DNA from: Thioalkalivibrio sp. ALJ24
GTDB lineage: Bacteria > Pseudomonadota > Gammaproteobacteria > Ectothiorhodospirales > Ectothiorhodospiraceae
Length of the DNA stretch: 64,000 nt
Direction: 5' to 3'
NCBI RefSeq assembly: GCF_000377785.1
Contig: NZ_KB898727.1
Coordinates: 1-64,000 of the forward strand
This document shows positions 55,955-59,789 of the stretch, piece by piece. The position numbers were made by a program, and so were the translations under genes. A model generated the notes under the pieces. That model was not told the origin of the DNA and did not search any database. It saw only the letters and a program-made list of their open reading frames with translations. Positions within the stretch are counted from its first letter, which is position 1. Each line of letters starts with the position of its first letter.

Positions 55955-57477
55955 CCCTGCCCCCCGGCGGCGGCCGGCAGGGCGTCGATCAGATCGCCCG
56001 CCAGCATACCGATATCGCCGCCCAGCCGATGCGCCGCGACCCGCGCGGCCGCCGCATGCCAGGCCGCCCCGGCACGCGCCGCACCGCGGGCGCCCAGCCC
56101 CTGCCCGCGCAGCGCCGCGATGATGCCGGTCAGGGCATCGCCGCAACCCGGGGTCGCCATCCCGGGATGCCCTCCGGTCACGCAGTCGTACGGCCCCTCG
56201 CCGGCATCGGCGACCAGGGTGCCCGCGCCCTTCAGCAGCACGGCGCCGCCGAAGCGCGCAACCAGCTCGCGCAGCCGGGTCGGGCGGTCCGCCTCCACCG
56301 CTGCCGCCTCCAGGTTCAGCAGGCGTCCGGCCTCGCCCGGATGCGGCGTCAGCACCCAGTCATCCGAGCGCCGCGGGGTCTGCGCCAGCAGGTTGAGGGC
56401 ATCGGCATCCACCACCAGCGGGCGGCCGGAATCCGCGGCCGCCAGCCACAGTTCCCGCCCCCACGGACCCTGGTCCAGCCCCGGGCCGATCGCCACCGCA
56501 TCCGCCCGTTCCAGCCAGCGCAGCAGTTCCGGACCTTCGCTCACCCCGCGCACCATGATCTCGGGGCGGTCACTGCAGACGAAGGCCGCATGTTCGGGAT
56601 GAGTCAGCAGGGTCACGCGCCCGGCCCCGGCACGCAGGGCCGCGGTCGCCGCCAGCCGCCCCGCCCCGGCGAACCCGGGGGCACCCCCGACGACCATCAC
56701 GTGGCCGGCATCGCCCTTGTGCGCCCCGGGCCGCCGCCGCGGCAGCCCCGATCGCCAGTGCCCGGGGCCGACGCGCCGCGCGGTCGGCGCGAAGCTCTCC
56801 ACCAGCGAGTGCGGCAGATCCAGCGGTGCCACGCTGACGGCCCCCGCGTGATCCACCGCGGCCCCGGTATGCAGCCCGGGCTTGTCGGCAATGAACGTCA
56901 GGGTGCGCGTGGCCCGCACCGCCTGGCCGCGCAAGGCCCCGCTGTCGGTATCCACGCCGGACGGCACGTCGGCCGCCAGCACCGGGAGGCCGGCGCGATT
57001 CAGCCGTTCGATCACGTCACCGTACCCATCGGTCAGCGGGCGCTGCAGACCGATACCGAACAGCGCATCCACCCACAGCTCCGCAGTGGCGGGCTCGAAC
57101 GTCTCCAGCGGGTGGATTTGGCCCCCACTTTCCTCCCACAGACGCCGGGCCCGCTGCCCGTCCGACTCCTCCCGCGCCCGCGAGGACCCCGCGTGCAGCA
57201 CCACCTCCAGTCCGGCCGCCCGCGCGCGGCGGGCCAGCACGAAACCGTCGCCGCCGTTATTGCCGGGGCCGCAGAGCACCCCGATACGGGTCACCTCCGG
57301 CCAGCACGCACGCAGATGTTCCAGCAGCGCCGCCCCGGCCCGGTCCATCAGCTCGCCCGGCGCGATCCCGGGCAGGGCCATGGCGGTGGCATCCAGCTCG
57401 CGCATGGACGCACTGTCGAACAGCGGTTCACCGAACACGGGGCTGGCCGGCGACGGGGGTGCGGGGGCATCATTCAT
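55951..57477 (-). CDS. nnr: Bifunctional NAD(P)H-hydrate epimerase/dehydratase
   Basis: The 508-aa protein repairs hydrated NAD(P)H. The N-terminal epimerase domain (about 1-220) has GPGNNGGDG and DVPSGVD; the C-terminal ADP-dependent dehydratase domain has GDAGHVMVVGGAPG and GGHPGMATPGCGDALTG. The start ATG 57477 has AAGGAGA 8 bases upstream. Its start codon overlaps the queG reading on the other strand (CATG). Confidence 0.92.
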   Translation of the reverse strand: MNDAPAPPSPASPVFGEPLFDSASMRELDATAMALPGIAPGELMDRAGAALLEHLRACWPEVTRIGVLCGPGNNGGDGFVLARRARAAGLEVVLHAGSSRAREESDGQRARRLWEESGGQIHPLETFEPATAELWVDALFGIGLQRPLTDGYGDVIERLNRAGLPVLAADVPSGVDTDSGALRGQAVRATRTLTFIADKPGLHTGAAVDHAGAVSVAPLDLPHSLVESFAPTARRVGPGHWRSGLPRRRPGAHKGDAGHVMVVGGAPGFAGAGRLAATAALRAGAGRVTLLTHPEHAAFVCSDRPEIMVRGVSEGPELLRWLERADAVAIGPGLDQGPWGRELWLAAADSGRPLVVDADALNLLAQTPRRSDDWVLTPHPGEAGRLLNLEAAAVEADRPTRLRELVARFGGAVLLKGAGTLVADAGEGPYDCVTGGHPGMATPGCGDALTGIIAALRGQGLGARGAARAGAAWHAAAARVAAHRLGGDIGMLAGDLIDALPAAAGGQG

Positions 57478-57508
57478 GTCCGTTTCTCTCCTTGCTGGCC
57501 TGTCGATC

Positions 57509-58726
57509 GTGCCTGAGCATCCCGACCCGCGCCAATGCGCCGAACTCGCCGATCGCATCCGCCAGTGGGGACGCGAACTCGGCTTCGCCGACCTGCGCAT
57601 CGGCCCGGCGCGGGTCCCCGAGGCCGACCGTCGGCAACTGAACACCTGGCTCGAACGCGGCTCCCACGGCGACATGCAATGGATGGCCGATCGCGCGTCG
57701 CTGCGCCATGACCCCGACGCGCTGGTTCCCGGAGTGCAGCGCATTATCAGCGTGCGCATGGATTACTTCCCGCCCCGCACCCGCCGCCCCGCCGCCCAGC
57801 TGGCGGATCCGCAGGGCGCCTATGTCTCACGCTATGCCCTGGGCCGCGACTACCACAAGCTGCTGCGCAAGCGACTGACCGAACTCGGCCGCCGGATCGA
57901 GGCCGAGGCACCGCACGGCTACCGCGCCTTCACCGACAGCGCGCCGGTGCTGGAGAAGGCACTGGCGCAGCAGGCGGGCCTTGGCTGGATCGGCAAGCAC
58001 ACCAACCTGCTGGCCCGCGGGACCGGCTCCTGGTTCTTCCTCGGTGAACTGTTCACCGATCTGCCGCTGCCGGTCGACCCCGGTCCGGGCGAGGACCACT
58101 GCGGGAGCTGTCGCGCCTGCCTGGACGTGTGTCCCACGCAGGCGTTCCGCGGCCCGCACGACCTCGATGCGCGACGCTGCATCTCGTATCTCACCATCGA
58201 GCTGAAAGGATCGATCCCGGAAAACCTGCGCCCGCTGATCGGCAACCGCATCTACGGCTGTGACGACTGCCAGCTGGTCTGCCCGTGGAACCGCTTCGCC
58301 GAGGTCGCGGCCGAACCGGATTTCGTCGCCCGCCATGGCCTCGACAGCGCCTCGCTGGTCGAGCTGTTCGCCTGGGACGAGGCGACCTTCCTCGAACGCA
58401 CCGCCGGCATGGCGATCCGCCGCATCGGCCACGAACAATGGCTGCGCAACCTGGCCGTGGCGCTCGGCAACGGACCGGCCACCGATCAGGCGCGCGAGGC
58501 CCTGGCCGCGCGCGCCGACCACCCGTCGCCACTGGTGCGGGAGCATGTAACCTGGGCCCGGACACGCCTGGACGAACGGGCCGCCGGCCGGCTCGCCGAA
58601 CCGCCGGCCATCCCGGTGAAGGCGCTCACTCGCGCACCGGTGGACCCGGCCGCAAGGCCCGCCAGCATCCCCGCCCCGGAGGCCGGCACCGGGACGCCCC
58701 ACGAGGACCCCACGAGCGGTTCCTAG
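57509..58726 (+). CDS. queG: Epoxyqueuosine reductase QueG
   Basis: The 405-aa cobalamin- and iron-sulfur-dependent enzyme performs the last step of queuosine synthesis on tRNA. It has two [4Fe-4S] motifs, CGSCRACLDVCPTQAF and CDDCQLVCPWN, and the GWIGKHTNLL segment. The start GTG 57509 matches the length of E. coli QueG; an ATG at 57476 is an alternative, and neither has a clear ribosome site. The C-terminal 45 residues extend past the usual end. The stop TAG is supplied by palindromic element B. The gene is divergent from nnr. Confidence 0.85.
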   Translation: MPEHPDPRQCAELADRIRQWGRELGFADLRIGPARVPEADRRQLNTWLERGSHGDMQWMADRASLRHDPDALVPGVQRIISVRMDYFPPRTRRPAAQLADPQGAYVSRYALGRDYHKLLRKRLTELGRRIEAEAPHGYRAFTDSAPVLEKALAQQAGLGWIGKHTNLLARGTGSWFFLGELFTDLPLPVDPGPGEDHCGSCRACLDVCPTQAFRGPHDLDARRCISYLTIELKGSIPENLRPLIGNRIYGCDDCQLVCPWNRFAEVAAEPDFVARHGLDSASLVELFAWDEATFLERTAGMAIRRIGHEQWLRNLAVALGNGPATDQAREALAARADHPSPLVREHVTWARTRLDERAAGRLAEPPAIPVKALTRAPVDPAARPASIPAPEAGTGTPHEDPTSGS

Positions 58727-58996
58727 GGAAACACTGATCAATGTACACGCTCGCGCTCGAGTCGCTTTTGCGTGCGAACAAGGCGCGGCGACCGCCGTGC
58801 AGTTATTCTGCACAAGGAAGCCGCAACGCCGTGCGCGCGCAAAAGCGGCCGAGCCCCTACGGGGTTGGGCCCCGGGTTCCCCGATCCGGCGTTGCGCCGC
58901 TTGCGGGTAGAACCACTACCCGCTGCACGACGCGCCTTGTCTCGGAAAACCCGGGGCACCAACGCGAGCGTGTACATTGATCAGTGTTTCCCTAGG
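58722..58996. repeat. Palindromic repeat element B (275 bp) with 34-bp perfect terminal inverted repeats
   Basis: The terminal inverted repeats 58722-58755 and 58963-58996 are identical over 34 bp and start with CCTAGGGAAACACTGATC. Interior arms pair about the same dyad axis near 58859: ACAAGGCGCG (58778-58787) with 58931-58940, and GCCGCAACGCCG (58820-58831) with 58887-58898, so the whole element is one imperfect palindrome. Each end carries a TAG stop: queG ends at 58726 and the pgeF stop is 58994-58992. Both strands are open for 79 codons, starting MYTLAL and ending RERVH, only because the repeats are inverted. It has no transposase; it is MITE- or REP-like and a relative of element A. Confidence 0.9.
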
Positions 58997-59789
58997 CTCC
59001 GGCCTCCGGCCGAATCCAGACCAGGCTCGCGAGGCGCCCGGTCGTGCCGTCGCGACGATACGAGAAGAACCGCTCGGGATCGCTGAAGGTGCATTCGCCA
59101 CCGCCATGCACGGCCACGCCCGCGCGCTGCAGGCGATCGCGCGCCAGCGCCTCCAGGTCCGCCAGCCAGGGCCCGCTGCGTGCGGCCGCTTTGAAAGCGC
59201 CGGTCATGTGCGGCTGCACCGCCAGGAACCGCTCGCGCACCTCCGCGCCGACCTCGAAGGCTTCGGGGCCGATCGCCGGCCCCAGCCAGGCCTGCCAGAC
59301 CGCCTGCGGACAGGCCTCTTGCAGCGCCGCCAGCGTGGCCTCCAGGACCCCGTCCACCAGCCCGCGCCAGCCGGCATGCGCCGCCGCCACCGCCTCCCCG
59401 CCGGTACCGGCGAACAGCACCGGCAGGCAGTCGGCCGTCTGCACCGCGCAGACCCGACCGGGCCGGGTGGTCATCACCGCGTCGGCCTCCACCGGCGCAC
59501 CGGCGGCGGCCAGGTCTTCCGCGCGCACCACCCGCGTGCCATGCACCTGCGCCGGCCAGTGCAGCTCGGCACCGGGCACGCCCCGCGCGGCCACCGCCCG
59601 CGCCAGACGGCGCCGGTTCCCGGCGACCCGCTGCGGATCATCCCCGGTATGCAGCGCGAGATTCAGGCTGGCCCATACGCCCTCGCTGATTCCGCCGGCG
59701 CGGGTGGTCTGCAGGGCCCCCACCGCCGGACCGACGGGCCAGTCGGGCGTGATCAGAACCTCGTCATACAGCGCGTCAGCGGCGTTCAT
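58992..59789 (-). CDS. pgeF: Laccase-domain protein PgeF (YfiH), peptidoglycan editing factor
   Basis: The 265-aa protein has the multicopper-like Cu/Zn motif region with QVHGTRVV, TADCLPVLF and AAAHAGWRGL, and LGPAIGPEAFEVG. It removes misincorporated residues from cell-wall precursors in E. coli (YfiH). It follows rluD with a 4-base overlap, as in many Gammaproteobacteria. The final TAG lies in the terminal repeat of element B. Confidence 0.9.
   Translation of the reverse strand: MNAADALYDEVLITPDWPVGPAVGALQTTRAGGISEGVWASLNLALHTGDDPQRVAGNRRRLARAVAARGVPGAELHWPAQVHGTRVVRAEDLAAAGAPVEADAVMTTRPGRVCAVQTADCLPVLFAGTGGEAVAAAHAGWRGLVDGVLEATLAALQEACPQAVWQAWLGPAIGPEAFEVGAEVRERFLAVQPHMTGAFKAAARSGPWLADLEALARDRLQRAGVAVHGGGECTFSDPERFFSYRRDGTTGRLASLVWIRPEAGA

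Follow-up and report, generated by a model that had tools for sequence, protein, structure and literature searches.

The queG–pgeF junction

Within the window, the 64,000 nucleotides of Thioalkalivibrio sp. ALJ24 contig sequence analysed here, queG on the plus strand and pgeF on the minus strand converge on a palindromic element, and the TAG stop of each gene (58724–58726 for queG, 58994–58992 for pgeF) lies inside a CCTAGG at one of the element's ends. This arrangement, proposed in a first-pass annotation from the sequence alone, is borne out by the sequence itself and by profile matches to both genes. Comparison with other copies, described below, shows that the biological unit is 58727–58991, 265 bp with GGAAA...TTTCC ends and a CTAG on either side. 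The features of the locus are as follows.

57476–58726, plus strand: queG, tRNA epoxyqueuosine(34) reductase, 416 aa (TIGR00276, E 3e-143; PF08331)
58723–58726, no strand: CTAG of the left-hand 4-bp target-site duplication, ending in the queG stop TAG; one CTAG in the empty site
58727–58991, plus strand: MITE body, 265 bp, GGAAACACTGATCAATG...CATTGATCAGTGTTTCC, non-coding; delimited by comparison of 112 distinct insertion sites
58727–58755, plus strand: left terminal inverted repeat arm, perfect against 58963–58991; co-varies with the right arm between copies
58778–58787, no strand: interior palindromic pair ACAAGGCGCG, 10 bp, mirrored at 58931–58940
58822–58831, no strand: interior palindromic pair CGCAACGCCG, 10 bp, mirrored at 58887–58896
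58963–58991, minus strand: right terminal inverted repeat arm, perfect against 58727–58755; co-varies with the left arm between copies
58992–58995, no strand: CTAG of the right-hand 4-bp target-site duplication, containing the pgeF stop TAG (58994–58992) on the minus strand
58992–59789, minus strand: pgeF, peptidoglycan editing factor, 265 aa (TIGR00726, E 3e-52; PF02578)

Gene calling places nothing between 58726 and 58992, a stretch in which mechanical open reading frames do overlap the element. Two Rfam matches fall far under their gathering scores (23.6 versus 90 bits and 19.7 versus 124 bits), and a promoter and terminator scan returned nothing clearly above chance. The unusual C-terminal extension of QueG that had been remarked on together with the element does exist, as a tail of 53 aa past the TIGR00276 match (residues 28–363 of 416), but it is not caused by the element, since the same tail is present in an element-free relative, G001 (92.8% identity over residues 1–416).

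Positions 58722–58755 and 58963–58996 form an inverted repeat that is perfect over 34 bp, CCTAG context included, whereas terminal arms reach at most 5 bp in 1000 mononucleotide shuffles; these terminal repeats and both 10-bp interior pairs share one dyad axis, at 58859, as had been noticed at first reading. Set without gaps against its own reverse complement on this axis, the element matches at 65% of its positions. Unconstrained folding of the DNA gives −118.6 kcal/mol (shuffle mean −57.0, z −16.5, equalled by 0 of 200 shuffles), and the RNAs of the two strands, likewise folded without constraint, give −194.7 and −200.5 kcal/mol (z about −17.5). The further suggestion of a single long hairpin holds as far as the shared axis and the strong fold are concerned, but the best predicted fold is three-way, with an outer stem, two side hairpins and a small apex.

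A dispersed family with a four-base duplication

The window element belongs to a non-coding MITE family dispersed in Thioalkalivibrio. A genome-wide count of copies, the check that the first-pass annotation had called for, finds many: five near-full copies at 85–100% identity, plus several fragments, in the element's own genome (20 contigs, 2.8 Mb), and matches in 16 of 30 genomes of the genus, or in 15 if only the 23 genomes with at least 90% completeness are counted. At the level of the taxonomic family, 17 of 47 genomes (the 30 included) have matches, the sole one outside the genus being single and weak (E 9e-4), and an exact 25-base pattern recovers 52 stretches, every one in a record titled Thioalkalivibrio. 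In each of two genomes, G005 and G013, at least 40 distinct places were counted by hand. From 176 places in all, removal of 13 without 200-bp flanks left 163, removal of 12 with unclear ends left 151, and removal of 39 repeats of a site left 112 distinct insertion sites—a sample weighted to G005, G013 and the best matches—across which the element measures 264–311 bp. Of the properties by which a MITE is recognized it has these: it is short and without coding capacity, has terminal inverted repeats and a target-site duplication, occurs in multiple dispersed copies, and has ends that match those of an autonomous element in the same organisms.

Flanks of 4 bp are identical at 41 of the 112 sites, compared with 1, 1 and 2 sites at lengths of 2, 3 and 5 bp, and the identical pairs include 28 CTAG/CTAG and 9 TTAA/TTAA. 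This peak, together with the single CTAG of the empty site described below, defines a unit whose duplication is 4 bp long and YTAR-like. The flanks of the other 71 sites are unlike, often by one change, as in CTAG/CTGG (7) and CCAG/CTAG (5), which is likely due to later mutation; yet among the 112 copies the base of the duplication that adjoins the element is more conserved (87 and 83%) than the outer base (62 and 66%), a gap not expected from simple decay of identical copies. The conserved inner base prompted us to consider a duplication of 2 bp (TA) or of 3 bp, and both are disfavoured by the length counts above, by an insertion-sequence copy flanked by GTAG/GTAG, and by empty sites with a gap of 4. 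Exactly 4 bases separate the flanks in 9 of 27 rows of empty-site candidates; in the remainder the gap runs from −9 to 16, and a number of rows, such as L141 and L057, are probably not true empty sites. The target itself is scarce, CTAG being strongly depleted in the window as a whole (10 found versus 69 expected from dinucleotide shuffles). At two loci, L146 and L107, elements directly adjoin another element end with one CTAG common to both; judging by these, a new target may arise with every insertion.

The genome to which the window belongs encodes a 321-aa DDE transposase that matches NF033581 (the NCBIfam IS5 family, E 9e-95), PF01609 and PF05598. A relative 93% identical to it is found in G005 in three copies of an insertion sequence with the ends GGAAACGCTGATCAATG and GGAAACACTGATTTATT, whose duplications, read by eye, are CTAG, CTAG and GTAG; because GTAG is not palindromic, the last of these fixes the duplication length at four. 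The MITE shares with these ends 16 of the first 17 bp on its left side and 12 bp on the other, again by eye. Past about 17 bp the MITE showed no resemblance to the insertion sequence, which indicates that simple internal deletion of that insertion sequence does not account for the MITE. Transposase matches, several of them fragmentary or weak, occur in 8 of the 30 genus genomes as against 16 of 30 for the MITE, so some copies are stranded or served by another enzyme.

We conclude that the window element is almost certainly a non-autonomous MITE, presumably moved by an IS5-family transposase and inserted into a CTAG common to the queG and pgeF stops. The IS5-family DDE enzyme would recognise ends like GGAAACrCTGATYAAT, insert at 4-bp YTAR-like sites, mostly CTAG, and duplicate them. 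The element shares the 4-bp YTAR duplication of the IS5 family and has no transposase gene of its own; since that gene sits in separate insertion sequences, the element is counted as a dependent relative of the IS5 family rather than a member.

Origin of the two stops and the question of gene ends

Comparison with a relative that lacks the element at queG–pgeF, also envisaged at the outset, was possible for one genome, because queG lies within 1.5 kb of pgeF in 2 of 26 pgeF-bearing genomes, the window's and G001. G001 is also the closest relative seen (PgeF 88%, QueG 92.8%). Its junction carries no element and reads as a single GGAGCCTAGGAACC, with one CCTAGG where the two TAG stops overlap, and the automatic empty-site test finds exactly 4 bases between the flanks. 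With both stops lying in that one CCTAGG, the stops in the window predate the element; on this comparison they are the original ones, doubled as target site and not contributed by the element. Since either strand of CTAG contains TAG, a 4-bp duplication leaves one full TAG per gene. Before insertion, then, convergent queG and pgeF would have overlapped in one CTAG; the element would have entered this CTAG, already common to both stops, and the duplication would have put a CTAG on each side, such that each gene retained its own TAG and neither protein was altered. Insertion would presumably have been neutral.

The first-pass annotation had left two readings standing, insertion exactly at the stops and co-option of the element's end as a stop; for the window copy the empty site of G001 upholds the former and does away with the latter. 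Two of three frames are in fact stopped within 15 bp of the element's ends, by the TAG of the duplication and a TGA in the repeat, and 10 called gene ends at other copies use the terminal-repeat TGA, such that an element might be thought to have brought the stop codons to genes that formerly ended elsewhere. At this locus, where the empty site already has both TAGs in the same frames, that account is refuted, and we give it hardly any credence. A second double-stop case is provided by L128 from strain ALJ21: when the flanks are rejoined, two convergent genes both stop at its CTAG, the left-hand one resembling cyaY. Another Thioalkalivibrio genome, G009, has a shortened relative of the element (142 bp, L068:2257–2398, read by eye) at the TAG stop of pgeF.

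How often copies meet gene ends was assessed on rejoined flanks, using a gene caller based on codon usage, with the window and the retrieved loci as its training set (it starts queG 33 bp late, with stops unaffected), at 109 sites, 3 of the 112 having been dropped for flanks shorter than 600 bp. The initial expectation was that other copies would exist and that their placement would be non-random with respect to gene ends; copies are indeed many, but a stop codon is overlapped at only 27 of the 109 sites, two stops being overlapped at 2 of these. By context, 30 sites fall inside called genes, 47 in codirectional, 20 in divergent and 11 in convergent gaps, and 1 at an edge. As the sequences stand today, 49 called genes end in an element or its duplication; 27 of them use the duplication TAG and 10 the terminal-repeat TGA, and 12 end elsewhere.

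As background we took the other CTAGs in the same loci, which may overlap one another. Sites at which one or both flanks are CTAG lie at stops in 20 of 60 cases versus 30 of 154 in the background (p = 0.047), or 20 of 46 versus 29 of 97 with gene-interior sites set aside (p = 0.13); for sites with CTAG on both sides the figures are 10 of 28 versus 30 of 154 (p = 0.08) and, again without gene-interior sites, 10 of 23 versus 29 of 97 (p = 0.22). None of the 9 TTAA/TTAA sites is at a stop. A transposase that specifically targeted stop codons or gene ends would fit the 27 sites, the excess at p = 0.047 and the shortened relative in G009, but we consider it very improbable, the excess losing significance without gene-interior sites, falling short of it even across all sites when CTAG is required on both sides, and finding no counterpart at TTAA/TTAA. 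The meeting of element ends with stops is instead a by-product of the target sequence, to which CTAG scarcity and the loss of gene-breaking insertions presumably contribute; such loss could explain the weak excess.

The annotation had also raised the possibility that the element acts as a bidirectional terminator. A hairpin terminator or insulator, kept at gene ends between convergent genes, would suit both the very stable fold on the two strands (z about −17.5) and the position of the window copy. Convergent gaps, however, are not enriched among copies (7 of 46 CTAG-flanked non-genic sites versus 19 of 91 background CTAGs, p = 0.50), and the element's ends have no T-run, the feature that follows the hairpin in an intrinsic terminator; one weak terminator-like match, inside the element, compares with 0.4 expected. 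The 30 of 109 sites called inside genes also speak against this role, and G001 manages without an element at queG–pgeF. Given no preference for convergent genes, we see nothing to suggest that the element is selected for terminator activity and regard that function as improbable. Insertion into a pre-existing CTAG makes the locus a clean case of CTAG-targeting transposons sitting harmlessly on stops, even on one common to two convergent genes, and element ends at stops need not imply co-option.

Paired arms, variable apices and known systems

The two arms of the palindrome change together between copies. In an alignment of 41 short-class copies (of 43 with 264–268 bp, L166 and L197 being left out for no analytical reason), two-sided changes with pairing kept occur in 17 of 28 outer pairs. 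Such cells number 62 versus 10.9 in shuffles, a contrast inflated by the relatedness of the copies, and fall to 4–8 when the partner is slid by 1–3 columns; overall, 97.9% of cells pair, and a distinct end type (GGAGACGCTG...) accounts for some of the double changes. Length varies in a modular fashion, the classes around 265, 280, 295 and 310 bp reflecting the presence or absence of modules of about 15 bp at three hairpin apices. The centres of these optional modules are variable (about 58841–58903 in the window, and the homologous columns of 112 copies), with a mean entropy of 0.51 bit in module columns versus 0.27 bit in the element's middle and 0.41 and 0.45 bit in the end arms.

Copies at the same site were compared 21 times, at 19 sites. 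Both duplications are kept in 17 of these comparisons and module length differs in 10, among them 2 in which the element is inverted relative to its flanks; these inverted pairs, L191/L237 and L219/L184, each show one insertion site in opposite orientation in two genomes. Rapid homogenisation of the arms after insertion, also considered, was mostly not seen, with 30 one-sided arm changes and 1 concerted change, and the single two-sided change at fixed sites follows from an inversion. In the literature, homogenised arms and inverted spacers are both attributed to template switching between inverted repeats (PMC8604942); the preponderance of one-sided changes argues against its simple version. 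The same-site differences may also stem from conversion between copies, from repeated insertion at one site or from inheritance of different source copies. A more elaborate scheme, that of a fold-back element with a renewed palindrome, in which copies would arise arm-matched and template switching or conversion would swap modules and flip the insert, is speculative and in our judgement rather unlikely; if true, the family would document, naturally and in replicate, how bacterial inverted repeats stay perfect. Its many copies and orthologous sites in close Thioalkalivibrio genomes make it a usable system for palindrome evolution.

No title or abstract in the literature searched, a body that leaves subscription journals outside its coverage and does not include IS databases, describes this MITE family, which is of IS5 type and of a kind already known. 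As PMC3733652 describes them, bacterial MITEs are 70–300 bp long, with terminal repeats of 15–30 bp, no coding capacity and robust folds, and are moved by transposases through recognition of the MITE ends. Our element is alike in kind to those treated there (RUP, NEMIS, Nezha and others), and is set apart from them by description as a full-length palindrome of up to 311 bp with three optional apex modules of about 15 bp and covarying arms. The same account places GTAG-type REPs in two Thioalkalivibrio strains and gives REPs a size of 20–40 bp. These are likewise palindromic repeats, and from the same genus, which might recommend a REP- or REPIN-type palindrome moved by a RAYT tyrosine transposase; our element, which measures 264–311 bp, has long terminal repeats and duplicates 4 bp, differs by description from these much shorter repeats of another class (PMC3733652), and the probability we attach to such an origin is very small. 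A dependent MITE of IS5 type has a close parallel in IS5 itself, which in E. coli duplicates Py-T-A-Pu, with CTAG the commonest, at 15 of 24 listed sites (PMC5493358). The likeness lies in the IS5-family DDE transposase of the presumed partner and in the 4-bp duplication, and the difference in an element that is gene-less, has 29-bp repeats without the CTAG, and is palindromic throughout.
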